This document shows, in pieces, positions 35,727 to 55,936 of a stretch of DNA of 64,000 bases. The translations under genes and the position numbers were made by a program. The stretch covers positions 124,001-188,000 of the forward strand of contig JAENZQ010000002.1 of assembly GCA_016841185.1 (NCBI GenBank). The letters are read 5' to 3'. The DNA comes from Anaerovorax odorimutans (lineage in GTDB: Bacteria; Bacillota; Clostridia; Peptostreptococcales; JAAYPU01). The stretch's first letter is position 1, and each line of letters opens with the position of its first letter. Under the pieces are notes generated by a model. It did not search any database. It was not told the origin of the DNA and saw nothing but the letters and a program-made list of their open reading frames with translations.

Positions 35727-38585
35727 TTACCAGCTTAGCGGATTTGCTTTTATTTTTTCCATTTCATCATAAAAATCAGAACCCAGGTAATACTTCTTTG
35801 GAGGCTCTATCTTACCGCCTGCAGCCAAGGTATCCAGACCGGCCTTGATTTTTTCCGGAGCAGCCGGTAGTTCATAAATCCTGACACCGCAAGCATTATT
35901 GATTGCGTTGATAACTGCAACGTGATCGGATGATTGGAAAGCTTCGGAAGCACCGGAAGAACCGAAAGGTCCTCTCTCATCAAAACCATCCAAGTGAATA
36001 ACTTTGATGTCATCCGGAATATCCTTGATATATGGAACTCCGGCAGCATACATATTGGTATGTTTCTTAACATCATCATAGTTTTCTTTAAGCGCAAAAC
36101 CGATGGCATGTGAAATACCGCCATACGCCTGACCGTCTACAGCCTGAATATTTCCGACCTTGCCAACCCAGTCTACGCAAGTCATTCCGATAACTGTCGT
36201 CCTTCCAGTTGCTGCTTCCACTTCAACCTCTGCCAAAAATAGGGCATAAGTATAAGCATAAGTTGGATTTCCCGAACCGTCATTGGGATCCAAGAAGTCA
36301 AATTCATCCCATTCATCTGCAGCCGTCCAGTTGCCCTCATGCCTTGTAGGGATACCTTCAGCGACCATTTCATCATAAGTACGATACGTACCGTCTTCCT
36401 TACGCATAGCGTTGGCAAGATTTTCAGCCGCTAAAATACTGGCTTTACCATTTGCAAAGTGAGAACGTGAACCTGCAGATTCACCTGTATTTGGACAATA
36501 TTTGGTATCTGCCTGAACCAGCTTAATATCATCGGGCATTACATCAGGAAAATAAGGTTTTAACGCTTCCAGTGTACAGATCAGAGATCCCTGATCACCG
36601 CCCTGGCCCTGATCCTGCCATGTATCATATTTGATGAATTTATTGTCAGGTGTCAGCTCTATAGCAACACTGGCTTCATCAACGCCGCCAAGTCCGACAT
36701 TATAGCCGCCCCAGGCCAAACCGACCCCTCGCCGGACTTCCTTGGTATCGGCAGCCTTAGCTTTTTTAACTGCTTCCTCATAATAGGGCTTCATGATATC
36801 CATCATTTTTTCCATAGGGTATTGAAGGAAGGGACGCTGATTCAGGTTCGTCTGACCCGGTCTTGCAATGTTTCTATATCTGAATTCAAATGGGTCCATT
36901 CCTATTTTCTCAGCCAGCATATCGATGAGGGCTTCCCCACAGGTATACGCCTGAGGTCCTCCGTACCCTCTATAAGCAGTTCCGTAAGCATGGTTGGTTA
37001 TGGCTACTCTGGCCAATCCCAGTGCATTCGGTACATAATATGGGAAAAACATAAAACGAAGGATCTTGGTGAGTTTGTCATCCCCAAGTTCCGGATAAGC
37101 ACCGTGATCCAATCCGGCATCAAATTCTCCGGCAATTATTTTTCCGTCTTTATCACAGGCTAATCTTCCATTGATATGCGCTGGAGAGCGTTTACCGCTG
37201 AACGCCATGAACTGCGCATAATCCATTGACAACGCAACTGGCATTCCTGTTACTTTACATGCAATCGCTGCCAATGCATAAGAACTGGCACTCATAGCCC
37301 ATCCGAAAGAACCTCCGGTTGGATTTTCAACAACACGAATCTTTTCCGCAGGAAGGCCTACTGCTTCTGCAATATCATCCCGGTCAAAATAAGTGGTCAT
37401 CGCCTTACATTGAACTGTCAACAGACCGTCTTCATCATAGTAAGCCTGTACCGTATCTCCTTCAATGGACATATGGGGCTCTCTTGTAGAATAGAAACTT
37501 CCTTCTACAGAGTATGCCGCTTCCTCGATCAATTCGGGAACTTGATCTGCTTCACCTTTTCGCAGCGGCTGTATACTGTAAACATTATCCATTGACGGAT
37601 GGATCCTCATAGCATCCGGCATAACCGCATCTAAATAATTCATATATTCAGGAAGCTGCTCGATTTCAACCTTGACTTTTTCTGCTGCAGCTTTTGCATG
37701 CTCTTTTGTATCAGCGGCAACCATGGCAACAACGTTACCCCAGGAAAATATCTTTTCATCCTGCAATAGCTTATGAACCTGATCATAAACCACTGTTCTG
37801 GGTGAAAACTGATAAGCCATGAGACGATTAGCACCTTCTATATCTTTTGCTGTGATGACTTTTACAACACCCGGCATTTTCTCAGCTTCGCTATAATCAA
37901 TGTGTAATATCTTGGCATGATTTGTGATCCTTGGCATAACAAGAGCAACTTTCAAAGTTTCAGGAGGCATTTTCAGTTCGATGTCGTCACCAAAGTCACA
38001 AACACCGCATGCTTTTGCCATTGCATTTGGCCGAATAATAGGTTTGCCGTAAAAGTTTCCTACATCCTTTTTAAAATCGTATGTAATATCCTCTAAAGTT
38101 TTTTCACCGCGCATGATTGCTGCAGCTGCCATAACAGCATCTACAATTTGCTTATAACCGGTACATCGACAAACATTTCTGTGTTTCTGGAACCAATCAC
38201 GTACTTCCTCTCTGTTAGGCTTTGGGTTTTCCTGTAAGAGTGCATACGCAGATACGATAAACCCGGGGACACAGAAACCACACTGTACAGCACCAAGGTG
38301 AACCCACGCATATTGAAGAGGATGAGGATTCAGAACAGTTCCGATCCCTTCAATGGTCAATACTGAACTGTAATCTTTAACTGTCTTTATTTTTCTTGTG
38401 CAGGAACGAATGACTTTCCCGTCTAAAATTACAGAGCAGGCACCGCATACGCCTGTTCCGCATCCTATTTTTGTACCGGTAAGTCCAAGCCGACGCAAAA
38501 CAACTGCCAAAGTATCCTTTTCAGGATCACATATGAACATACGGTCTGCACCATTGATGTTGAGTGTCATTTTCCTTAAATTCAT
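35727..38585 (-). CDS. Mop-type molybdenum hydroxylase (aldehyde oxidoreductase-like), copy 1
   Basis: The 952-aa product has the build of Desulfovibrio Mop. An N-terminal plant-type [2Fe-2S] domain (GCGTGVCGACSVILDGKV, last Cys in RSCTRKI) leads to a second helical [2Fe-2S] domain (QCGFCVPGF...NVCRCTGYKQI). The molybdopterin-binding domains follow from about residue 180, including YRGYGGPQAY and the catalytic Glu in GSSGASEAFQS near 890. There is no FAD domain and no signal peptide. Such enzymes hydroxylate aldehydes or N-heterocycles with water-derived oxygen. A clean AGGAGGT site precedes the ATG. Oxidoreductase copy 1 lies downstream; copy 2 of the pair lies upstream. Confidence 0.92.
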   Translation of the reverse strand: MNLRKMTLNINGADRMFICDPEKDTLAVVLRRLGLTGTKIGCGTGVCGACSVILDGKVIRSCTRKIKTVKDYSSVLTIEGIGTVLNPHPLQYAWVHLGAVQCGFCVPGFIVSAYALLQENPKPNREEVRDWFQKHRNVCRCTGYKQIVDAVMAAAAIMRGEKTLEDITYDFKKDVGNFYGKPIIRPNAMAKACGVCDFGDDIELKMPPETLKVALVMPRITNHAKILHIDYSEAEKMPGVVKVITAKDIEGANRLMAYQFSPRTVVYDQVHKLLQDEKIFSWGNVVAMVAADTKEHAKAAAEKVKVEIEQLPEYMNYLDAVMPDAMRIHPSMDNVYSIQPLRKGEADQVPELIEEAAYSVEGSFYSTREPHMSIEGDTVQAYYDEDGLLTVQCKAMTTYFDRDDIAEAVGLPAEKIRVVENPTGGSFGWAMSASSYALAAIACKVTGMPVALSMDYAQFMAFSGKRSPAHINGRLACDKDGKIIAGEFDAGLDHGAYPELGDDKLTKILRFMFFPYYVPNALGLARVAITNHAYGTAYRGYGGPQAYTCGEALIDMLAEKIGMDPFEFRYRNIARPGQTNLNQRPFLQYPMEKMMDIMKPYYEEAVKKAKAADTKEVRRGVGLAWGGYNVGLGGVDEASVAIELTPDNKFIKYDTWQDQGQGGDQGSLICTLEALKPYFPDVMPDDIKLVQADTKYCPNTGESAGSRSHFANGKASILAAENLANAMRKEDGTYRTYDEMVAEGIPTRHEGNWTAADEWDEFDFLDPNDGSGNPTYAYTYALFLAEVEVEAATGRTTVIGMTCVDWVGKVGNIQAVDGQAYGGISHAIGFALKENYDDVKKHTNMYAAGVPYIKDIPDDIKVIHLDGFDERGPFGSSGASEAFQSSDHVAVINAINNACGVRIYELPAAPEKIKAGLDTLAAGGKIEPPKKYYLGSDFYDEMEKIKANPLSW

Positions 38586-38784: not shown

Positions 38785-39168
38785 TCATCCATAGTCTTCC
38801 AATATTTCTATTACTTTTTCGTATGTTTTATTGACAATAACAGGACATTTTTCAACTTTATTAAAAGGATCATCGCCTAATATATCCTTACAGTTGCAAG
38901 ACTCGAAATTATCTTCAAACCATTGGACTAATAGAGGAATCATTTGGTCAGAAGCTTTATCCGGTTCAAAAAAAGACAGTAAGCATGCCCCTCCTGATAA
39001 CGCCCCGCAAAGCAAACCGCTATACAATCCACTGCACAATCCCTTTACAGCATTGATTAAATCAGCATTTTTCAAACCTTTCTCATCAAGCCCCATCTGC
39101 AATAATATTTGAGAACAGCAATATCCTTTCAGCTGATACTCAAATATTTTGTCGGTATAATCTTGCAT
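38785..39168 (-). CDS. C-GCAxxG-C-C family protein (DVU_1555-like)
   Basis: The 127-aa product has the cysteine pattern of the C_GCAxxG_C_C family. C17-C18 sit in GYCCSQ, C45 in KGLCSGLYSG, and a CGALSGGAC core at about 54-62 replaces the usual GCAxxG. C91/C93 lie in ESCNCKDILG and C108 in KCPVIV. Members are thought to bind a redox cofactor or Fe-S cluster, and some are exported, but this one has no signal peptide. It lies between the two Mop/oxidoreductase pairs. NCBI names a cluster-specific branch DVU_1555. A small electron-transfer role is inferred. The ribosome site AAGGAGGTG is ideal. Confidence 0.87.
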   Translation of the reverse strand: MQDYTDKIFEYQLKGYCCSQILLQMGLDEKGLKNADLINAVKGLCSGLYSGLLCGALSGGACLLSFFEPDKASDQMIPLLVQWFEDNFESCNCKDILGDDPFNKVEKCPVIVNKTYEKVIEILEDYG

Positions 39169-39382: not shown

Positions 39383-41659
39383 TTACGTATCAACATCTGT
39401 TCTTTTTCCATTCCAAACCAGCTCCAAATCAATTTTCATTCTATGACAATATGCATTTACAAGTTCAAACCCACCTTCTATTGTGCGATATTCTGCCCAA
39501 TATGTCATATTTCCGATTTTTTTATATCCGGAATAATAACCGCTTTCCCAATCACGAGTTCTTTTTTTAGTTTTATTACAGTACAGAATTACTTGCCGGA
39601 TATCATTTTCCAAGATTCGCTCCGAATCAAGCTTTTCTCTGGTTTCCGGTGAAATAACCAACTTCATCTTATCCTCTGTTGATTTTTGCTCCACATTGGC
39701 CTCATCTTTCCAATATTTTTTTAATAAAGTATTTTTTAACTCGAATCTATTTTCATGACGTTGAGTCACTGTTTTAGGCTTCGAATCTCTGTCTTGTATG
39801 TCGAATAAAATATCTAAAATATGCAGCACAGGCTTTCCTTCGGAAGCAAATACATCCCGGCAGTTAATACAATAGGTCATATACGGATTATTGCTTTTTT
39901 CAATTCTCTTTTTTACGACTGTTTCTGCAAATTCAGGATTGGCAATGGATACCTGACCGCCAAAACTGCAGCACCTTGGATGATCTTCGTAGATTTCTTC
40001 GATTCTATATCCTGCTTGTTTAATAAGCGACCTTATCTCATTGCGAAGCTGCGGCTCATACCGACTGCTGCACGGATCAAAAACTGAATATATTTGATTA
40101 TCTTCGTTTCTTCTCGCTTCGATTCCAAACTCCGTTATAATATCGTAAAGAAACATTACAGGTAAATCCGGTAAAAATTTATTGAATTTTTGCTTACATG
40201 TCGGGCAAGCCAGAATAATCTTGGGCATACCCAAATCTGTCCAACTTTTTTTTATTTTTTCAATAACCTTTTTATGTTTCTCCTCGTCTCCTGCCCATTC
40301 AGCAGGAGCACCGCAGCAGTGAAGTATCAAAGCTGTACTGGAATCATATTTTAAAAGATATTCATAGGTCTCAAGCACATATCGAGGATCTGAAGCCCCG
40401 AGTTGGCATCCGGGGAAAAATACATAATTACTTTTTGAAAAATCATTTGGTGCTTTTGCTATTTCAGCCATTTCACCATTAGCAGAATCCATGTCCCTAA
40501 GCCAGTATTCATGAAAAGCCCATGGTTGTTTTCCCTGTCTATGAAGACTTCGTCTGCTTTCCATGATCATTCCATCCAGATCTATGCTCATGGGACAGAC
40601 TTCCTTAAAAATACCATCCATCATATGTGTATTGATAAGTCTTTTTGCCGGTGCAGCTTTGAGATCTGCATTCCCCGGCAAGATGGTAGCTACTACCTCA
40701 TCCCTTACTCTTGAAGGCCATTTATTATAAAATGCTATTAGGTCCGAATAATTTCGGCATGCATCACATTGACACCGCAAGCAACGATTTGCTTCAGCCA
40801 CTGCTTCTTCTTTACTGAAAAATCCGTCCTTTTCAGGAACAACAGGTTTTGAGCAGATCAGCTTTGCCGGATCAAGTTCCATCTTTGTTGTACGGTTGTC
40901 TTCATAAGGTAATACAACACCTGTCCTCAAATACCTTTCTATAGCGGCTGCATTGTTCAGCCCGTCGGCGATCGCCTCTATCGTGTCCTTGCCAAGTATG
41001 GATCCTCCTGCAAAAACAGCGGTTCTCTCATGCAGTAATCTTGGCAGTTTGTCATTCAACAACCCAAAATCCGTTCCGCCTTTCCCGGTAGCCACATAGA
41101 TAACATCATAGTCCTGAATCTCCTCAAGGCTATTGATTTCTGTATTTAAAAACAAAGTATAATTTTCAAATTTAAATTGCTGTTCAATATCCTTCATAAA
41201 CACTTCTTCCGGCAGCTTATCCCAAAGATGCCCGCCAATCCTTCCGGATTTTTCATATACGGATAATGAATATTTTTTAGCACTAAGCCTTAAAGTACAG
41301 GCCAGCCCGCTGATTCCTCCGCCAACAACAGCTATATTCTTATTTTTTGCTGGTAGATTATAATCATTTGGATCTATTTTAGTTGCATAGGAAAGACATG
41401 CTTTCTCAAGCAAATTCAAATTTATTGAACTGTCTGTCTTTTCACGGGGACATACATCTCTACAAGGTTCATGGCATAAAGCAGCGACAATTTGAGGAAA
41501 GCCTACTGCATCACGATATACTTTATAGGCCGAATTGCAATTCCCGCGGCCCATCTTTTCTGTAAATCCTCTTACATTTAAGTGAAATGGGCATACTGCA
41601 GTACAAAAAGCTTCTTCATTCTGCAGGCAGTTCTTGAATTGATCGATATATTTCTTCAT
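39383..41659 (-). CDS. FAD/Fe-S oxidoreductase with CCG domains, copy 2 (cluster ligands lost)
   Basis: The 758-aa product is a paralogue of the protein at 33299-35584 with the same domain order. It has FCTAVCPFHLNV, the FAD motif IAVVGGGISGLACTLRL, RCLRCQCDACRNYSDLI, two intact CCG modules (FFPGCQLG...LHCCGAPAEWAG; DPCSSRY...CCSFGG...YCINCRD) and the same C-terminal domain. The segment matching NTCTQCGLFEEACPEDI in copy 1 reads NTHMMDGIFKEVCPMSI here, and YCDLC reads YSDLI, so at least four Cys are gone and one Fe-S cluster is probably missing. The ATG at 41659 is chosen by alignment with copy 1. It likely serves Mop copy 2. Confidence 0.86.
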   Translation of the reverse strand: MKKYIDQFKNCLQNEEAFCTAVCPFHLNVRGFTEKMGRGNCNSAYKVYRDAVGFPQIVAALCHEPCRDVCPREKTDSSINLNLLEKACLSYATKIDPNDYNLPAKNKNIAVVGGGISGLACTLRLSAKKYSLSVYEKSGRIGGHLWDKLPEEVFMKDIEQQFKFENYTLFLNTEINSLEEIQDYDVIYVATGKGGTDFGLLNDKLPRLLHERTAVFAGGSILGKDTIEAIADGLNNAAAIERYLRTGVVLPYEDNRTTKMELDPAKLICSKPVVPEKDGFFSKEEAVAEANRCLRCQCDACRNYSDLIAFYNKWPSRVRDEVVATILPGNADLKAAPAKRLINTHMMDGIFKEVCPMSIDLDGMIMESRRSLHRQGKQPWAFHEYWLRDMDSANGEMAEIAKAPNDFSKSNYVFFPGCQLGASDPRYVLETYEYLLKYDSSTALILHCCGAPAEWAGDEEKHKKVIEKIKKSWTDLGMPKIILACPTCKQKFNKFLPDLPVMFLYDIITEFGIEARRNEDNQIYSVFDPCSSRYEPQLRNEIRSLIKQAGYRIEEIYEDHPRCCSFGGQVSIANPEFAETVVKKRIEKSNNPYMTYCINCRDVFASEGKPVLHILDILFDIQDRDSKPKTVTQRHENRFELKNTLLKKYWKDEANVEQKSTEDKMKLVISPETREKLDSERILENDIRQVILYCNKTKKRTRDWESGYYSGYKKIGNMTYWAEYRTIEGGFELVNAYCHRMKIDLELVWNGKRTDVDT

Positions 41660-41669
41660 AAAATATTCT

Positions 41670-41742
41670 ATATCGTTGGAAACGGTTCTTGGCACCTGAC
41701 GAATAATGATTTCGTGTCAAAAAGAACCGTCCCCAATGACAC
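41670..41742. repeat. GGGGACGGTT inverted repeat, copy F
   Basis: The right arm 41713-41742 (CGTGTCAAAAAGAACCGTCC then CCAATGACAC) is intact. The left arm (about 41670-41697) is degenerate (GTTGGAAACGGTTCTTGGCA). It fills the gap between Mop copy 2 and oxidoreductase copy 2. Confidence 0.75.
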
Positions 41743-44710: not shown

Positions 44711-44745
44711 ATAATAAAAAATCTGACCCTCGGAAAGGTCAGATT
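44711..44745 (-). terminator. Terminator of the riboswitch leader
   Basis: On the minus strand the stem AATCTGACC / GGTCAGATT (44737-44745 and 44720-44728, 9 bp, 8-base loop) is followed by TTTTTATTAT. It lies between the aptamer-like leader and the Mop copy 2 gene, the right place for a cofactor-controlled stop. Confidence 0.8.
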
Positions 44746-44771
44746 AAATATAACAAAAAAATCTGCTGATC

Positions 44772-44877
44772 ATTCATTCCTTTCCAATACGGGAGGCTTA
44801 TTCGTTTCCAAATAAACCCTATCGGTTTGCTGCCATAGTATCTCAGCGTATACCACAGGTCTACAAACTCGGAATCT
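44772..44877 (-). promoter_or_regulatory. Molybdenum cofactor (Moco/Tuco) riboswitch-like leader
   Basis: Read on the minus strand, the leader begins ATTCCGAGTTTG and ends GCCTCCCGTATTGGAAAGGA followed by ATGA. ATTCC and GGAAT can form the closing stem. GTTTG pairs with CAAAC, and TTATTTG-GAAA-CGAATAA forms a hairpin with a GNRA tetraloop. The CCGAG, GCCTCCCG and TTGGAAAG elements and the GNRA loop are what I recall of the Moco RNA motif. Upstream is an AT-rich stretch with a possible TATAAT (44885-44890); downstream is a terminator and then a molybdopterin enzyme gene. Whether it prefers Moco or the tungsten cofactor cannot be told. Confidence 0.78.
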
Positions 44878-45140
44878 TTATTAAATTATATAATTTTTTA
44901 AACTCTTTTTAAATACTTTAATATTATAATTGTTTATGTTTTATGTGTTCCAAAAATAAAATTATGTATTTTAATTTCGAAGAAGAAATCCTTGTAATAT
45001 TTGAGTATTATCATGCAAAATAAATGCCAGAAACCTGATTGTTTAAATTTCAAGAACACAATAAATACAAAGTGATTTAAAATTTTCACTTTTGAGATTT
45101 TTTCTCTGATTTCTCTCATATTTTATAAATCTTTTCATTT

Positions 45141-46879: not shown

Positions 46880-49800
46880 TTAGATCTGTTGTATCGCCGA
46901 CAGCAATCTGTAAAGCATGACGGCTGCTTCTTCTCTTGTGGCATTATTCTGCGGTCTGATCTCATGTCCATAACCATTGATGATGCCTAATGCATTAAGA
47001 GCCTCAACAGCTTCTCTTGCATAATCGGAAATTTGGACGGTATCGCTGAATCCCATCTCTCCGCCGGTTCCCCGAATATTTCCAAATCGATCTGCAACTC
47101 TGTACAGTATGGTACAAATCTGTTCTCTGGTAATCTGAGCATCCGGTGCAAAGCTTCCGTCACCCATACCACTGACAAGGCTTAATTCTACAGCCCTCTG
47201 GACTTCATCCGCATACCATGCAGCCCCTTGGATATCTCTAAAATCATCAGAATATGGAGACTGCCCTTCGTATAAAGCTCTGATAATCAATGCCGTAAAT
47301 TCAGCTCTTGTAATGGATGACTCCGGATCAAACAGATTCTCTCTTTTTCCTTTTATGACTTCTCTTGAAGCCAATATTTCCACTGCTTTTTTAGCCCATT
47401 CATGAACAACATCAGCAAAAGATTTGTTCCCTTCCAGAACAATAAATGTACCAAACCTGTCTGTCCTCACTCTAAATGTACCCGTCTGCTCATCATATAC
47501 ACCGCCTGAAGGGATCCATTCTCCCTTTTCGTTCTGATAATACGCAACTGCTCTTTCTGGGTCATTAATCTTATCCGTATTAATAGGTATTTCTATATAT
47601 ATTTTCTCTTCTGTATTGGACATAGGCTCCCCGTCCACCATCAAGGTATATCCATATCCGCCGGATACAATGGTTTTATCCTGGGGAGTATCGCTGTTGC
47701 TGAAGGTTTGTTCTTCCACACTCATTTGGATTTTTTGTGCGTTCATGCAATATTTTTTTATATATTCATTGGGCAGCAGGATCTGTCCTGCCGCAAATTC
47801 TATCCGGATTCCATTTCCGCCATCCATTGCTTCATCGATTTGGTCTTTAGTCAGTTCATAATCATTACCGGAAGCACTTATGATCATATAGCTGTCGGAA
47901 ATAATATTTAAAGTAATTTCCTCTGCCGTATCCTCTTTTACTCTTGGTCTGTGTGACCCGCCGTCGGTCTGTACAGCTTTTGTATCAAAGGTAATAGCAT
48001 AGTAATTTTCTAATGGTTTGTTCGAAATATCATATAAGGATACTTCCGGTATTTCCACTGTATAAGTGGAATTACCTCTCCATTCGCTGCGGGGTGTAAT
48101 TCTTAGTGCGCTTCCCGATATCTGTTTCTCTATACTCGCTTCACGCTGGTTTTGATCCAATACTTTTATTTGGCCGAACTGATCGCCCTCTTTAATGTCA
48201 TTGGTGAAATTCACCATAATAGAATCATCCTGTTCAACTCCGGTCATTCCCTGAGTGGGATAAGACCCTGTCACTCCAAGACTGTCGGTATCCACTGTAA
48301 TCAACTTCATGAAATAGTCTTCCGAAAGTGTACTTCCATACGTGGTTTCAACTGCATTTGCAGGAACGGATAAGGTATACATAGTCCCACCTGATAAATC
48401 TGACTGAGGTGTTATTTTCAGAATCGATCCTTCCAAAGACGTATTTACAGGATGGTCCGTACCCTCCATGTCATATAGCTCAATATCATTTATTTTTGTG
48501 CCTGAGCGAATTTCCTTGTTAAACTGTAATTCTATTGTCTGGTTCAATGGCACATTGAAAGACTCATTTCCTGGAAATGCCGCCATTACTTTCAGTCCTT
48601 CAGGTTTCAGCTCAAACCAATAGCCATTTTCCTCTTTGGCCTGTGCCGATGCATTATGCGCAGCCGCCATAACTTGTAGTTTCTCATAGCTTTTAAACAA
48701 TGTTGATGCATCCAACTCAAAGCTGAAAAGTCTACTCTCACCGCTTTCCACATCTCCTGCAGGATATGATAAAATCAAGCTGCCTGACAAACCTTCATGA
48801 TACAACGACAACTCGCAGTCACTCATTATTTTTCCTGTCGGGTTAAATACTTCTGCGGTAATACTGTATGTGTTATTGCCTTTTTTTACTGCCTCAAGGT
48901 TTTCCACAAAAAGCTCATACTCTATGAGAGCGAAACCCGATGTATTATTGTTTCTGTCTATATCCTGAATCTTACGGTCCGGATCTATTATAACTACTGC
49001 CGTATCATCCTGGTAATCTTCCGGTACGATCCATTCTACCTCCGTAGTAACATAATCATTTGCAGGTATGGTGTCCGCCGTGAAGATCTGAGAAACAGGA
49101 TTACCGTTTGTATCGGTAAATCTGAATTCAACGTTGCTTTCCGGGTAATCTCCCTCATTATGAATGGTAACCGATACCCTATTTGTTGAATCTGCTGCAC
49201 CGTTGCCTGTACTGATCTCAATATCATCTGCTCCGACTTTTAAATCATGTATCAGCTGTTTTCTGATAACAACTAAATCTGTCTCCCCGACATTTCTATA
49301 TTCCTCTCCGTCAATGGTTTCTGTTATCATGTTTGTTTCTGTCAGAGCGATCATTATTTCATCATTATCTGTAAAATCAGGTGTTAATTGGCTGTAACTA
49401 TTTTTACCGCTTATGAGCGTTGAAGGATAACTAACTGACTGTTTATGGATATCGTATAGCAGCAGACTTAAATTCTTGATACCGTCTAAACCTGTTGTGG
49501 CATAAGTCAGAGCAATGAGACCATCATTATTTTGCGCTATTTCGAAACTTGTCACCATGTCCTCAACACCTTCATTCAACATTTCGGATTGACCATTTAT
49601 ACCTTTTTTATAGTATATTTGTCCATCCTGCAGCCAATAAATCATTTCTCCATCATTGTCAAAAGCTACTCTCGGATTACCGTCAGAAAGTGTGTTGTCT
49701 GTCAGCCGCACAGGTTCCGCCCAGGCTCCATCCTGATAGACAGCGGCATAGACTTCCCGGTCTGCATCGGTCAGAATATTGCAGTCAGTATCTATCGTAT

Positions 49801-52800
49801 AGACAGCAACTGTTTTTTCTCCGTTACTTTCCGCATTCAGTTGAACGATGGGATCAAGGTTTCCTTCTATAAGAAGAGGTGCTTCCCATCCTGTACCTGT
49901 ATTGATGGAATAATATAAATCATATGTTTCCGAGTCCGGTGACAGTATCGTATTTGACCTGTTTTTTACCCATACGATCATGTCTTTTTCCTCTGTCTCT
50001 GTGACTTGAGCCATGTAATCGTAGTAATCATCATTTGTAAGTGTTGCTTTCTCTTTGATGCTTACATTTTCCAAAATAGCTGTGGTAATCTCTCCGGCAG
50101 CAAAATTATCTTCCATTGTTGCATCTTCCCCGAAGATCTTATTCATATCCGTCCAGGCGGTTATTGCACCATATGTCCTTGTTTCTGTTCCTATTGCACC
50201 TATCGTTCTTACTGATGCATCTACGGCGAAATCCGCCGTACCATCTATGCCGAAGGCTTGAGGATCACTCCACAGTCCTCCATTGTATTGAGAATAATAG
50301 ATTTCCGTTCTGTTTTGCGATGTTCTTTCAGGATTATCATCCGCCCATATCAATGTTGCATTTCCATTAAGGCTTACAAGCTTCGGCTCAGCATTAGGAA
50401 AGATATTGCTCTTCAAAACTTTTCGGGTGATATCCGAAGGTGTACCGCTGAATCCCATAACAACAGGAGAATTTGCTACCCATTTGCTGTCACTGCCGTT
50501 ATTCCTTCCCATAAGGGTAAAGTTTTCCTTATTAAAGCTATATCTTTCTTCCGATTCATTTGCAGCCAGAACATTTGCACCTAAAAGCATACCTTCCATG
50601 GTCATGGCGTTCGGCATCAGTGATGCTGAACGATATATATCAAATGTATACTCAATGGCTTTCTTTTCCCATGACCAGAACAGAATAGTGGCCCTTGCCC
50701 CGCCTTCTACTGTACCTTCAGCAGCAATATCACAGCTGGGAAACGCAAACTCTGTCCCGATATAGCCGCCTAAAAAGCCTTCCAGATTCAATCCTTCTAC
50801 GCCTGCTCCAAGTGCGATCTCAACACCCGGTTCAATACCCAATGTCCCACTGAAATCATAAGTGTTATGGGGTCTGTCCACTTGCAGGGTGGCTGCTACT
50901 TCTGCACTGAGAGTACCTCTGAAGTAAGCCGGCACAACAAACAGCCAGAAATATTGGGTATAGCTTATTTCTCCCTCAACTCTTACTTCCACTTCACCGT
51001 GCCTGAAGTACCAGGCGTTTTCATCTGCCTTATACTTCCATTTGACTTTTCCGTCTAAGGACATCCCAAAATCCTTATCTCCGCTTTTGTATTTGCCTCC
51101 TTTTCTCATGTCATTGAGTTCTTTGAAATTTCCTGCGATATTTCCGCTATCACTTATCTGCTCCAGTATGCCCGGTGTATATCCGAAATTGAAGGTAATA
51201 CTGCCGTCATCAGTCATGATCCCTCCAAATCTTAAGGTTTCCAAATCAAGCTCCAGATCATCTCCTCCAACCAGAGGAAACCCTTCCGGAATGGTCACGC
51301 CGCCGATATCGGAAAGATTCATGCTCAAATTGACCAGGTATTTTCCATTTTTCTGAATAACACTCCCCACCGGGAAATTAGGTGCAACCTCAAATCCCAG
51401 ATCATGAGAAGCCGAAACGGAGCCGTCTTTGCTGACAGCCCGGACAATCATGGTAGCACTTGGTCCTAAGTCTTTTCCGACATTAATCTTTAATTTTCCG
51501 TCTTTTGAGTAGAATTTTTTCTCAGTAATGTTTCCGTTTCTGTCAGGTATGCTTGCGATAAATTCAAACTGTCCCGGCTCATGCCCTTTCCAGTCGTAGT
51601 GAGTATCAAAGGTAAGAGTATTGTGAGCACCGCTGATAAATATTTTTTTCTCGCTGTTACGGCTGTTTGTCTGGCTTGATGAAATATATCTTATAATCGG
51701 CTTATCAGATGGTATATCCCGTTCAATGGGAATAGTAATTTCATTTTCAAAAGTCCATAGATCCTCTTCAATGGTCTCATCATAATAATATGAATGACTT
51801 ACTTTTATAGTGGACATCAGCGGCAGCAAATCCTCTATAATATATTGATCGTCCGAATTTTTCGAGGCCTTGTAGACTTCCCCATTTATAACAACTTGAA
51901 TCTCCTGATCTGAAGCAACAACCTCATCCGTATTCTTATCCACCAGATTGATTTTGATACTGGCCATATCGGATAATTTTTTAATCTTCAGATAATGTTC
52001 CGGAAGGCTTCCTGCACAAGGTGCACTGTAACTGACATTATATTCTCCGGATTCCAATGAATCAATGTCAAATTTGAACTGTGCAGTTCCTGTATTGTCT
52101 GTCCTTTGGGTCTGTGAAATAACTGTATCGTACCCAGTTGGAATCTTGATGGTGGTAATGAATAAATCCAGTATATAATAGGTACGTTTACCTATCTTTG
52201 CCGTTACCTCTTCATTATCCAAAACAATACCTCTGTTTTGCAAGGTAATGCTGGTAGCGTATTCATCTTCTATCTCCGTATGGTTATAAAGGCTTTCCTG
52301 TTCCGGTTTCGGAACATTCCCTTGAGTATTATACTTTAAAAATTTCAGGACATCTATGGTCCTGGTAAATGAATAGGAATAACCATAGGAATCCACTACA
52401 TCCAATTTCACCTGTCTTTTTCCTGAAGCGGAAGTATCGGGGGTATAAGTCGTTGTAATATCATTTGATATTTCCCTTCCGTCAATTTTAAAACTATGAC
52501 TTCTGAGGTTTCTGCCCAAGGCAGCAAAAAAGTTTTTCAAATTCTCCGCACTGATGCTCACCGGCTTTGTCTCGAAAACCCGGTCTTTAGATACATCAAA
52601 ACCGGTATTCTCGGTATATAATTTATCCGGCACTTTAACATATGTATGTAACGGTGAACTTTGGATTCCCCGGTATTGAACAGCTCCTTTAGGGACACTC
52701 AAATAGTAACTGACATAAGGTAACCATTCACCTTCCGGCTTTATCAAAAGCCTATTGCCGCTGACGGTTTTATTAATGGGGACATTCTGCCCTCTCGAAT

Positions 52801-55800
52801 TGGTCAAACTGATGCTTCCCGCCGATTCCCCCGTGACAATACCCATGGGGTAAACCAATACGATCGAACCGTCTAAAGCAATATATCTTCCCGTTTCAGG
52901 CCCTATAGATGTCGCCCCATAACCAGCTGCTTGGACATAAAACTCATAGCTGACTTCTTTTGTAAACCAAAATCCTGTTTCGACCTTTCTCCAGAATTTG
53001 TCGGAAGGAAATTCGGCTTCTTCGCCTGCCATACTTGTAACAGCACCCTCCTTGAATGTAAATCTATTATCTCCTCGAGGCAACAAGTATAGCTTATTTC
53101 CATCATAATAGCATTCTGCTCTTCTGTGTCCGTTTAATATCTTGCTTAGGTCTACTCTTATCTGCTTATCAAACTCGATCAATATAGGGGTACGTCCAAA
53201 AGTTTCAAAATCATAAGATGTTACTTTTGGTCTTCCTGTTACATTGACTGTGAAAAATGCCGTATTAATTGCTTTGCTAAGTGTCTTTGAAGCTTGGTTC
53301 TTTACAGCATCACTTTTAATCGTAATGATATATTTAGTGTTTTCTCTGAGAGGTTCGGTAGGAATAATATCCAATACATTGCCTGCGACATCTGTTTGAA
53401 ACCCTACAGATAGCTTTATATTCCTGCTGCCCCCGAAAAATGTTTTTTCTGTAATTTCTTTTGCTAAATTTATTTTTGAAGCGTTCACGGTTATATTTTC
53501 ATCAAATGTAAATGAAATTGGTACACTGACAGGTATATTCTTAGATTTATTTACAGGATTGGCCGATGTAAGCTCAGGGCGTTTAGCTCTGTAATAATAT
53601 TCTTTTTGTATTAAACTTCCATAATGATTTCCCGAAAAATCCTCTATGGTATCTGCCGGAATGTTGATTTGCAAGTCATAATCATCCGCTTCACCGATGA
53701 CATCCATCTCAAGATTATTTCCAATTATTCTCGCCACACCAAAAACAGGCTGAGTATAACCGGCATCCGTCTTCTTGAAATAGGTAATAGCGTTCAAATT
53801 ATTGCTTTGAATGGGCTCATCGAATGTTAATATGATTTTATTCAGTTCACTCAAAATCACTTTTTCTTCCGGTATTGAAGAAATCATAACCGGTGCTTGA
53901 TAATCCGGAAGCGGAAGAACTGTAAAATCAAATTCGATGGACTCTGACTCTGCCCCGCTGCTAATATCAGCTGTCAAGGTAACTTGCTTGCTTCCTTCAT
54001 CGTTATCCGGTCTGATGACATCACCGCTGTTGCTAATGACACCGGTATCCGATGATGTCCATACAATAGTAGAACCGTTTGGTGCATTCGGTGGTAGATC
54101 CAGATCGTTGATTAGATTGAACTGGGAATCGTTCTCTCTTAATATGCTGCTATTGATATGATTATAAAGGGAATCGTCTCCGAGCCTGTCTTCCGAATAC
54201 AGCCATTTCTTATCTTCTGAAAGAATATCCGCATCTGTAGGTAGATCCTTCTTAACATTAAAAGAAAAATATTTGGTTTTCTCCAAAGACTCATTTTTGA
54301 TGACTGCACTTACTTCTACTACTTGATTACCTTGAATATAGGAAGGTCTGCTAACAGTACCGTCATTGCCGATATAGCTTGCATTACTGCTGTTCCAGAT
54401 TATATCCGATCCCTTTGGCGCTATTGTCGGGAATGTCAAAGAAGAGAGGATATCATCCATGCTTATGTTTCCATTTAATATCTGCTCTGCTGTAAGCCAT
54501 GAAAAGTCTGCCTCCAAAGCATCTTTTGCGTCTATATCCAAACATTTTACCGTCAGATTAAAAAACTTTTCCGCCGATTCTTCCCCCTTGGAGATAATTG
54601 CCGTTAGCGTAACCTTTTGATCTCCTAAAACATATTCAGGACGTGTAACGGCTCCGTCGACACTAATAATACTTGTATCACTTGAATTCCAAGTAATAAT
54701 GCTGCCTGTATCTCCTGCTTCAGGAAAACATAAATCTGTTAATATGGAATCTTTGCTTGTATTTCCGTTTAAAATATCATTGACTGTAAGACCGTCATAA
54801 TCCAATTGTACGATTTCCGAATCCGTCAAAGATGTATCTAACACAATGGTCTTTTCCAATTCGATCCCAGTTTGTGTTTCAGCCGTTATGGTCACTTCAT
54901 TATTAGTGGTGTCGGTCAAATCTAATATGACCTGCCCATTAGAATCCGTAGTGCCAATGGTACTTGACAATACACCATTATCTGCGGAGACATTTAGCGC
55001 TGTATTCTGAACAGGGTCTCCATTATGATCCGTTACGGTAAAAGTGATTTCCGTCCTGTCTGCATATTGAATCGAAGATGCTAACAGCAGCGCAGCTTCC
55101 GTATAGGCCGTAGCAACATCTATAGGATTGTATTCATTATCAAAATACCATTTGTCTATGATATGGTTCTGTCTTGCCGAGCCGGATGCTGCTGAAAAGC
55201 CTGCATAAAGAGGCACATCACCAAACTTGCTCTGCAAATCGAAATTACTATATGTCAAAGTCGGGGTGGATGGTCTTGTGTCCGAAGTAGCAAGCCTTAC
55301 TTCCACTGTATTGTTTGTCCCGTCATAATCAATCCAAACGTGATATGCAGTGCCTTCATTAAAACCGGATACTTCCTTTGTTGTTAGAGAGACAGCACTC
55401 CCGCTTATATTGACACCAATATGAGAAAAATTATAGTAAGGGTCATTTGCCGTATCATTATAATAAGTATCAAACTCTATGGCTGCGGATGTTCTTACTC
55501 CTTTTAAACCCATTTCGTTTGAACCGATAAAGCCAATAGTCGAAGAGGACATGGGCTGTAAAGCGAAGGTAAAACCGTCTCCGCCTTTGCCGTTTTTACT
55601 GCCATTCCAATCATATTTTTCCGTCAGTCTAAAGGAAAAGTACGTGCTGAATGAGTTACCATTTTTCAGATTGACCGCCTGCTTAGAAAATATAGTCCCC
55701 TTGTTATCCTTAACGCTGGGTGAGACGATAATACTACTTGCAGACTGGGATGCGTTTCCATTGAATTGCAGCCTCTCGGCATTAGAAAAATCATCGTATT

Positions 55801-55936
55801 TGATGGGCAGTTCCGTATCTCCCAGGGCATAGACTTCATTTTCTCCAGAAAGAAAAGGTATCTGGATGGGATACCCAAAAATTTGCGTGAAAATTAATAC
55901 TAATATAAGAATATAGCTGATACTTTTTCTTAACAT
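46880..55936 (-). CDS. Giant S-layer-anchored surface protein with lectin and Ig-like domains
   Basis: The 3018-aa product starts with a signal peptide (MLRKSISYILILVLIFTQIF). Reading along: an L-type (legume-like) lectin domain at about 45-270; a Big_1-like Ig domain at about 288-370; and three aBig-like Ig repeats at about 372-672 (IITWNSSDTSIISVDGAVTR; IIWNSSNASYIGNDGTVSRP; IVWTSSDTGVISNSGDV). SbsA-type Ig domains follow from about 675, then a large unclassified middle. A BNR/propeller-like region lies at about 1840-2230, a CARDB domain at about 2230-2335, two more SbsA-type domains at about 2445-2660, and three SLH repeats at 2835-3018. The SLH domains tie it to cell-wall polymers. A carbohydrate adhesin role is inferred. 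Confidence 0.92.
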   Translation of the reverse strand: MLRKSISYILILVLIFTQIFGYPIQIPFLSGENEVYALGDTELPIKYDDFSNAERLQFNGNASQSASSIIVSPSVKDNKGTIFSKQAVNLKNGNSFSTYFSFRLTEKYDWNGSKNGKGGDGFTFALQPMSSSTIGFIGSNEMGLKGVRTSAAIEFDTYYNDTANDPYYNFSHIGVNISGSAVSLTTKEVSGFNEGTAYHVWIDYDGTNNTVEVRLATSDTRPSTPTLTYSNFDLQSKFGDVPLYAGFSAASGSARQNHIIDKWYFDNEYNPIDVATAYTEAALLLASSIQYADRTEITFTVTDHNGDPVQNTALNVSADNGVLSSTIGTTDSNGQVILDLTDTTNNEVTITAETQTGIELEKTIVLDTSLTDSEIVQLDYDGLTVNDILNGNTSKDSILTDLCFPEAGDTGSIITWNSSDTSIISVDGAVTRPEYVLGDQKVTLTAIISKGEESAEKFFNLTVKCLDIDAKDALEADFSWLTAEQILNGNISMDDILSSLTFPTIAPKGSDIIWNSSNASYIGNDGTVSRPSYIQGNQVVEVSAVIKNESLEKTKYFSFNVKKDLPTDADILSEDKKWLYSEDRLGDDSLYNHINSSILRENDSQFNLINDLDLPPNAPNGSTIVWTSSDTGVISNSGDVIRPDNDEGSKQVTLTADISSGAESESIEFDFTVLPLPDYQAPVMISSIPEEKVILSELNKIILTFDEPIQSNNLNAITYFKKTDAGYTQPVFGVARIIGNNLEMDVIGEADDYDLQINIPADTIEDFSGNHYGSLIQKEYYYRAKRPELTSANPVNKSKNIPVSVPISFTFDENITVNASKINLAKEITEKTFFGGSRNIKLSVGFQTDVAGNVLDIIPTEPLRENTKYIITIKSDAVKNQASKTLSKAINTAFFTVNVTGRPKVTSYDFETFGRTPILIEFDKQIRVDLSKILNGHRRAECYYDGNKLYLLPRGDNRFTFKEGAVTSMAGEEAEFPSDKFWRKVETGFWFTKEVSYEFYVQAAGYGATSIGPETGRYIALDGSIVLVYPMGIVTGESAGSISLTNSRGQNVPINKTVSGNRLLIKPEGEWLPYVSYYLSVPKGAVQYRGIQSSPLHTYVKVPDKLYTENTGFDVSKDRVFETKPVSISAENLKNFFAALGRNLRSHSFKIDGREISNDITTTYTPDTSASGKRQVKLDVVDSYGYSYSFTRTIDVLKFLKYNTQGNVPKPEQESLYNHTEIEDEYATSITLQNRGIVLDNEEVTAKIGKRTYYILDLFITTIKIPTGYDTVISQTQRTDNTGTAQFKFDIDSLESGEYNVSYSAPCAGSLPEHYLKIKKLSDMASIKINLVDKNTDEVVASDQEIQVVINGEVYKASKNSDDQYIIEDLLPLMSTIKVSHSYYYDETIEEDLWTFENEITIPIERDIPSDKPIIRYISSSQTNSRNSEKKIFISGAHNTLTFDTHYDWKGHEPGQFEFIASIPDRNGNITEKKFYSKDGKLKINVGKDLGPSATMIVRAVSKDGSVSASHDLGFEVAPNFPVGSVIQKNGKYLVNLSMNLSDIGGVTIPEGFPLVGGDDLELDLETLRFGGIMTDDGSITFNFGYTPGILEQISDSGNIAGNFKELNDMRKGGKYKSGDKDFGMSLDGKVKWKYKADENAWYFRHGEVEVRVEGEISYTQYFWLFVVPAYFRGTLSAEVAATLQVDRPHNTYDFSGTLGIEPGVEIALGAGVEGLNLEGFLGGYIGTEFAFPSCDIAAEGTVEGGARATILFWSWEKKAIEYTFDIYRSASLMPNAMTMEGMLLGANVLAANESEERYSFNKENFTLMGRNNGSDSKWVANSPVVMGFSGTPSDITRKVLKSNIFPNAEPKLVSLNGNATLIWADDNPERTSQNRTEIYYSQYNGGLWSDPQAFGIDGTADFAVDASVRTIGAIGTETRTYGAITAWTDMNKIFGEDATMEDNFAAGEITTAILENVSIKEKATLTNDDYYDYMAQVTETEEKDMIVWVKNRSNTILSPDSETYDLYYSINTGTGWEAPLLIEGNLDPIVQLNAESNGEKTVAVYTIDTDCNILTDADREVYAAVYQDGAWAEPVRLTDNTLSDGNPRVAFDNDGEMIYWLQDGQIYYKKGINGQSEMLNEGVEDMVTSFEIAQNNDGLIALTYATTGLDGIKNLSLLLYDIHKQSVSYPSTLISGKNSYSQLTPDFTDNDEIMIALTETNMITETIDGEEYRNVGETDLVVIRKQLIHDLKVGADDIEISTGNGAADSTNRVSVTIHNEGDYPESNVEFRFTDTNGNPVSQIFTADTIPANDYVTTEVEWIVPEDYQDDTAVVIIDPDRKIQDIDRNNNTSGFALIEYELFVENLEAVKKGNNTYSITAEVFNPTGKIMSDCELSLYHEGLSGSLILSYPAGDVESGESRLFSFELDASTLFKSYEKLQVMAAAHNASAQAKEENGYWFELKPEGLKVMAAFPGNESFNVPLNQTIELQFNKEIRSGTKINDIELYDMEGTDHPVNTSLEGSILKITPQSDLSGGTMYTLSVPANAVETTYGSTLSEDYFMKLITVDTDSLGVTGSYPTQGMTGVEQDDSIMVNFTNDIKEGDQFGQIKVLDQNQREASIEKQISGSALRITPRSEWRGNSTYTVEIPEVSLYDISNKPLENYYAITFDTKAVQTDGGSHRPRVKEDTAEEITLNIISDSYMIISASGNDYELTKDQIDEAMDGGNGIRIEFAAGQILLPNEYIKKYCMNAQKIQMSVEEQTFSNSDTPQDKTIVSGGYGYTLMVDGEPMSNTEEKIYIEIPINTDKINDPERAVAYYQNEKGEWIPSGGVYDEQTGTFRVRTDRFGTFIVLEGNKSFADVVHEWAKKAVEILASREVIKGKRENLFDPESSITRAEFTALIIRALYEGQSPYSDDFRDIQGAAWYADEVQRAVELSLVSGMGDGSFAPDAQITREQICTILYRVADRFGNIRGTGGEMGFSDTVQISDYAREAVEALNALGIINGYGHEIRPQNNATREEAAVMLYRLLSAIQQI

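Follow-up and report, generated by a model that had tools for sequence, protein, structure and literature searches.

The minus-strand leader of an aldehyde oxidoreductase cluster in Anaerovorax odorimutans carries an aptamer of the Moco/Tuco riboswitch class (RF01055) that lacks stem P3, followed by an intrinsic terminator that can form only when a competing fold is given up. With rather better than even confidence, we take this leader to be a transcriptional OFF switch whose likelier ligand is the tungsten form of the cofactor and whose purpose would be to repress a molybdenum enzyme once tungsten AOR-type enzymes can replace it.

A P3-lacking Moco-class aptamer ahead of an oxidoreductase cluster

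In a cmscan search of the window, that is, the whole 64-kb stretch of DNA analysed, the leader matched RF01055 over positions 1-135 of 135, the full model, at 69.4 bits, the gathering threshold being 36 (E 1.2e-14). RF01055 was the sole Rfam family above threshold in the 64 kb, and no further match to it was found there. Other Rfam families were rejected as the identity of the leader, their matches being sub-threshold, with E 0.75 or worse. The first-pass annotation, which had called a Moco RNA motif on this strand and proposed the RF01055 model as its check, is borne out: all of the pieces that it named are present in the order given, namely, CCGAG (44872-44868), a P4 stem capped by GAAA (loop 44808-44805), GCCTCCCG (44797-44790), and TTGGAAAG (44787-44780). 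It had placed the element at 44711-44877; the element is indeed located there, though the 5' end of the RNA lies at 44886 rather than 44877.

The conserved core (CCGA, P4 with its GNRA loop, GCCUCCCG, and UUGGAAAGG) and stems P1, P2, P4, and P5 are all present. The P3 columns of RF01055 are a gap for this RNA in the cmscan alignment, and CCGATAGGG links P2 with P4. The RNA is 126 nt long, has CC/GG at P5, and is separate from its terminator. As regards the tetraloop receptor, GAAA and UAUGG are present, and the other P2 strand reads CCUGUG instead of CCUAAG; the CCUGUG strand is seen again in relatives, ahead of the same oxidoreductase gene. The leader folds better than 200 of 200 dinucleotide shuffles (z -3.4). 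Moreover, 25 of 30 pairs vary on both sides among 36 related RNAs, in an alignment fitted to the RF01055 model and mixing both of the subtypes described below, and none of 500 shuffles matches the observed score. Both the model match and the covariation by which the first-pass call was to be judged were thus found. Judged from its sequence, the RNA is a genuine RNA switch from an established class, one that responds to the cofactor in its molybdenum or tungsten form, and an ordinary new member of RF01055. It resembles the described Moco RNA motif (PMC2408646) in its full-length match, P1/P2/P4/P5, GAAA loop, terminator platform, and downstream Moco-enzyme gene, and differs in lacking P3 (the minority form) and in heading a tandem aldehyde oxidoreductase cluster. 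A possible promoter upstream is graded weak because promoter-like sites around the leader are as frequent in shuffles; its position fits the edge of P1.

The hydroxylase cluster stands directly downstream, as previously annotated (Table 1). Close homologues come mostly from Clostridiales Family XIII and Anaerovorax relatives. Of the 54 homologous gene starts for which upstream sequence was long enough, only 14 carry the canonical RNA. A cofactor-using enzyme had been regarded as an unusual target; however, the founding paper already lists Moco-using enzymes among the genes controlled by Moco RNAs (PMC2408646), so this point of novelty is already published. Adjoining the cluster, a 3018-aa minus-strand ORF (46880-55936) reads by eye as a series of Ig-like repeats with a C terminus resembling S-layer homology.

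Table 1. Features of the leader and its gene cluster in the window, and related loci in other Clostridiales
Feature	Position	Strand	Evidence
Possible sigma-70 promoter TTTAAA-N17-TATAAT; transcript start at 5' edge of P1	44885..44913	-	10/12 matches, weak
Moco/Tuco RNA aptamer (RF01055), P1-P2-P4-P5, without P3, GAAA tetraloop on P4	44761..44886	-	full-length match, 69.4 bits vs 36
P1 5' strand and core start, UUCCGAG	44868..44874	-	sequence and cmscan alignment
3' switching strand CGUAUUGGAAAGGAAU	44776..44791	-	partner when ligand-bound: P1 5' strand; partner in antiterminator: terminator 5' arm and loop
Intrinsic terminator AATCTGACCTTTCCGAGGGTCAGATT, then TTTTATT; loop and arm CCUUUCCGAGG resemble P1 5' strand	44720..44745	-	11 pairs; same loop in C7 paralogue
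First controlled gene: molybdopterin-dependent aldehyde oxidoreductase, xanthine oxidase family, 946 aa	41765..44605	-	NF045668 1233.6 bits, cut-off 1100; Pfam MoCoBD_1/2, Fer2, Fer2_2, Ald_Xan_dh_C
Pyridine nucleotide-disulfide oxidoreductase/dicluster-binding protein, probable electron-transfer partner	39383..41695	-	NF045663 745 bits, cut-off 530
DVU_1555-family C-GCAxxG-C-C protein	38785..39168	-	NF045669 126.4 bits, cut-off 103
Second aldehyde oxidoreductase copy, 952 aa, without own riboswitch	35727..38585	-	NF045668 1180.8 bits
Subtype RNA and antisense candidate	L051:13617-13728	-	complementarity to NF045668 mRNA
Subtype RNA and antisense candidate	L064:13983-14094	-	complementarity to NF045668 mRNA
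Subtype RNA and antisense candidate	L058:5585-5695	+	complementarity to NF045668 mRNA
Subtype RNA and antisense candidate	L053:14156-14266	-	complementarity to NF045668 mRNA
Subtype RNA and antisense candidate	L089:5601-5711	+	complementarity to NF045668 mRNA
Subtype RNA and antisense candidate	L076:5698-5809	-	complementarity to NF045668 mRNA
Subtype RNA and antisense candidate	L077:3545-3656	-	complementarity to NF045668 mRNA

Terminator, exclusive folds, and predicted direction of the switch

The classical terminator noted in the first pass does follow the aptamer; it is strong and is one of four terminator-like sites observed in 1.3 kb against 0.3 expected. Its loop, CCUUUCCGAGG, is identical in a paralogous leader on contig C7 of the same genome. 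The leader has two mutually exclusive complete folds, one with P1 and the terminator (-49.2 kcal/mol) and the other with a 12-bp antiterminator (-51.5 kcal/mol). In particular, GGAAAGGAAU either closes P1 or, as CCCGUAUUGGAAAGG, pairs with CCUUUCCGAGGG of the terminator. Folds of the truncated leader pass from the P1 form, when it is shorter, to the antiterminator as the RNA grows. In the oxidoreductase leaders of relatives, the terminator mostly stands apart from the aptamer. In 9 of 20 leaders, the 5' half of the terminator can pair with GGAAAGG in the 3' strand of the aptamer with an energy of -9 kcal/mol or stronger, a count made by a script that missed the window's own terminator, which was seen by terminator search and folding. 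The length of the antiterminator match does not differ significantly from shuffles in single leaders (0.20 for the window), whereas 16 leaders pooled by Fisher's method give about 0.002.

The leader anatomy predicts a transcriptional OFF switch, a direction that is well supported but not proven, because the folds and the relatives agree while the single-leader match length is not significant. Since the terminator competes with the aptamer 3' strand, ligand binding is predicted to free it. The cofactor, more likely in its tungsten than in its molybdenum form, would bind and close P1 using GGAAAGGAAU; the downstream terminator would then form, and transcription would halt before it reached the aldehyde oxidoreductase genes. 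In the ligand-free RNA, GGAAAGGAAU would pair with CCUUUCCGAGGG and the cluster would be transcribed. The switch thus probably turns the molybdenum aldehyde-oxidising enzyme off when cofactor is plentiful, the reverse of a rise in enzyme supply with cofactor level, which the link suggested in the first pass would imply.

An AOR-type subtype and a candidate antisense RNA in relatives

In a survey of 391 Clostridia genomes, 54 had RF01055 matches, and the 134 RNAs extracted were sorted by their P5 pair. One subtype, with G-C/C-G at P5, is about 110 nt long, often has GCGA, GUGA, GUAA, or GCAA as the GNRA loop of P4, and shows no clear P2 receptor (e.g., L116:1501-1612, L105:1501-1615, and several in L121-L149); part of this set was retrieved with a model of the subtype itself. 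An AFOR gene, an identity confirmed by Pfam for examples, comes next in 15 of 16 G-C/C-G RNAs as against 2 of 118 other forms (Fisher 8e-17, kinship ignored), and a second RF01055 form is also present in 12 of the 13 genomes that hold the subtype. Its stems are covarying or invariant. In 25 of 27 subtype RNAs, drawn from the class sample and the family loci, the 5' arm of the terminator is the aptamer's own 3' strand, a geometry that predicts an ON switch. Because most G-C/C-G RNAs pass the RF01055 threshold, with some scoring below it, they are regarded as members of RF01055 and not as a new family. The Moco-II motif was rejected as their identity, only RF01055 being matched in the loci scanned. 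The window RNA falls outside the subtype (P5 CC/GG, 126 nt, separate terminator), and a search of its own genome with subtype model R2 returned no true member.

In seven Clostridiales loci related to the window organism (Table 1), the subtype RNA is followed by a first terminator, 62-80 nt, a segment such as AAAAAAGUGCGCAG that is able to pair with the 3' arm of this terminator, and, in the majority, a run rich in U. Within these 62-80 nt lie two to four pieces, each 9-22 nt long, that complement sequence in the 5' region of the oxidoreductase mRNA (tested over -80..+45); they cover the Shine-Dalgarno sequence or start codon in six of the seven loci and, in L089, codons just past the start and the leader. 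In six of the seven loci, none of 300 mononucleotide shuffles reaches the best complementarity score. When 42 oxidoreductase mRNAs from loci lacking the element are scored alongside, the locus's own mRNA comes first in four of seven, because oxidoreductase mRNAs share start sequence; the complementary stretches vary among species, yet each matches its own mRNA. A purely cis-acting leader is unlikely, since in most of the seven loci a promoter-like TTGACA/TATAAT pair can be seen by eye before the oxidoreductase gene itself, and the elements of L076 and L077 are divergent from this gene. In most species the stretches do not follow the order of their targets along the mRNA; the two longest of L058 do. 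In L051, L058, L064, and L077, both RNA subtypes are paired, divergently or in tandem, within about 150-400 nt.

The 62-80 nt, which lie between two terminators, are described here as a candidate riboswitch-controlled antisense RNA. In these relatives, bound ligand would lead to antisense synthesis and so to a silent oxidoreductase gene, which would be an independent route to repression by ligand, with the same output as the predicted OFF switch of the window. Small or antisense RNAs controlled by riboswitches are known from EutX/Rli55 and from S-box and B12 antisense systems. Moreover, 24 antisense-oriented MOCO cases have been counted among antisense-acting riboswitches (PMC9943018). The relatives' loci are like these systems in that a riboswitch precedes an RNA able to act on another transcript, and unlike them in that the match is limited to short segments against the 5' region of an mRNA with a promoter of its own, these segments being encoded upstream, in tandem or divergently, with no full antisense overlap. 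No earlier account of the G-C/C-G subtype was found among the open papers searched, which is not proof of absence; from computation alone, the subtype and the antisense device look new.

Ligand, alternative readings, and proposed metal-isozyme switching

The first-pass annotation named Moco as the ligand. The class assignment stands; however, the ligand may be Tuco, because P3 is absent and RNAs without this stem tend to accompany tungsten-cofactor metabolism (PMC2408646). P3 was missing in 58 of 176 Moco RNAs in that study, and the P3-lacking form, which correlated with tungsten-cofactor genes, was proposed to sense Tuco (Regulski et al. 2008, PMC2408646). Exceptions were P3-lacking RNAs before Moco enzymes in Syntrophomonas wolfei, for which it was suggested that Tuco represses if an alternative pathway uses Tuco (PMC2408646); by analogy, this exception case would be the one that fits the window RNA. 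The leader is like the Tuco-type variant in lacking P3, in the AFOR genes of its genome, and in the Tup-like genes behind the same form in relatives, and unlike it in heading a gene for a hydroxylase of a molybdenum family, the exception class of PMC2408646. For the window RNA, P3 was called from the cmscan alignment, and for the family loci by reading them, because automatic scoring was unreliable (34 of 134 left without a call).

The genome holds six AFOR-family (AFOR_C) genes, and the switch is read as an isozyme switch for this reason. The family consists mainly of tungsten aldehyde oxidoreductases (PMC12096430) and also includes the molybdenum protein YdhV of other bacteria; tungsten use by the organism is thus indicated only by genes of a family with some molybdenum members elsewhere. 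Searches of the genome for transporters returned no TupA, no WtpA, and no confident ModA. In relatives, the P3-lacking CC/GG form precedes genes that we presume, from a known N-terminal motif, to be TupA/TupB-like tungstate-transporter genes, the Pfam check having confirmed the broad binding-protein family only. Such Tup-like genes follow 36 of 134 Moco-class RNAs in the class-wide Clostridia sample, and their place behind the P3-lacking CC/GG form fits a tungsten signal.

Two further RF01055 RNAs, both without P3, lie on contigs C7 and C65 of the same genome. The C7 RNA (L001, G000:C7:90292-90409; L004:12943-14262) closely resembles the RNA that precedes a tupA-like gene in relative G002 (L013), but a MATE-like transporter gene lies about 540 nt downstream of it instead. 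The C65 RNA (L002, G000:C65:144341-144462), of P5 U-A type, precedes genes for an FMN-binding protein and an Oxidored_molyb-domain protein.

Since the controlled enzyme belongs to the molybdenum-using xanthine oxidase family, Moco itself might be the ligand of the same OFF architecture, which would then act as negative feedback lowering the cluster when free Moco is abundant, and the S. wolfei precedent (PMC2408646) would suit this. We consider it unlikely, if still a serious alternative: P3 is absent in all three RNAs of the genome, the same RNA form stands before tungstate-transporter-like genes, and repressing a consumer while its cofactor abounds would be poor logic. That bound cofactor instead permits expression of the cofactor-using enzyme, as the first-pass logic implies, has metabolic logic on its side, and ON-type geometry occurs in the related AOR-type subtype; it is nevertheless improbable for the window, whose terminator is separate, with the aptamer 3' strand as its competitor. 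A degenerate, constitutive leader that retains the aptamer fold and a merely attenuating terminator, to which the CCUGUG receptor strand might point, is very improbable given the intact RF01055 core positions, the covarying stems of relatives, and the recurrence of CCUGUG before the same gene.

The B12 riboswitch represses metE, so that a cofactor shuts off the isozyme not needing it. The preferred reading, an OFF switch answering to the tungsten cofactor, shares this proposed isozyme logic and differs in that the choice would be between two metals of one pterin cofactor and not between presence and absence of a cofactor. In a Sinanaerobacter genome, a P3-lacking Moco-class RNA (L119:1501-1620) precedes a PF00171 aldehyde dehydrogenase, of a family without molybdenum or tungsten, which is also consistent with isozyme switching.

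More tentatively, and with somewhat less than even confidence, a see-saw on one tungsten-cofactor signal can be proposed, in which P3-lacking CC/GG RNAs would turn the molybdenum oxidoreductase and tungstate uptake OFF and the G-C/C-G subtype would switch ON the operons for tungsten AOR; this subtype would also, in several Anaerovoracaceae, drive an antisense RNA against the start of the oxidoreductase mRNA. The same genomes hold RNA subtypes with opposite predicted outputs that differ in a core P5 base pair. An OFF anatomy before a cofactor-using enzyme would be most sensible as metal-isozyme switching and, if this is true, the discrimination of molybdenum from tungsten cofactor by Moco RNAs would become directly testable.
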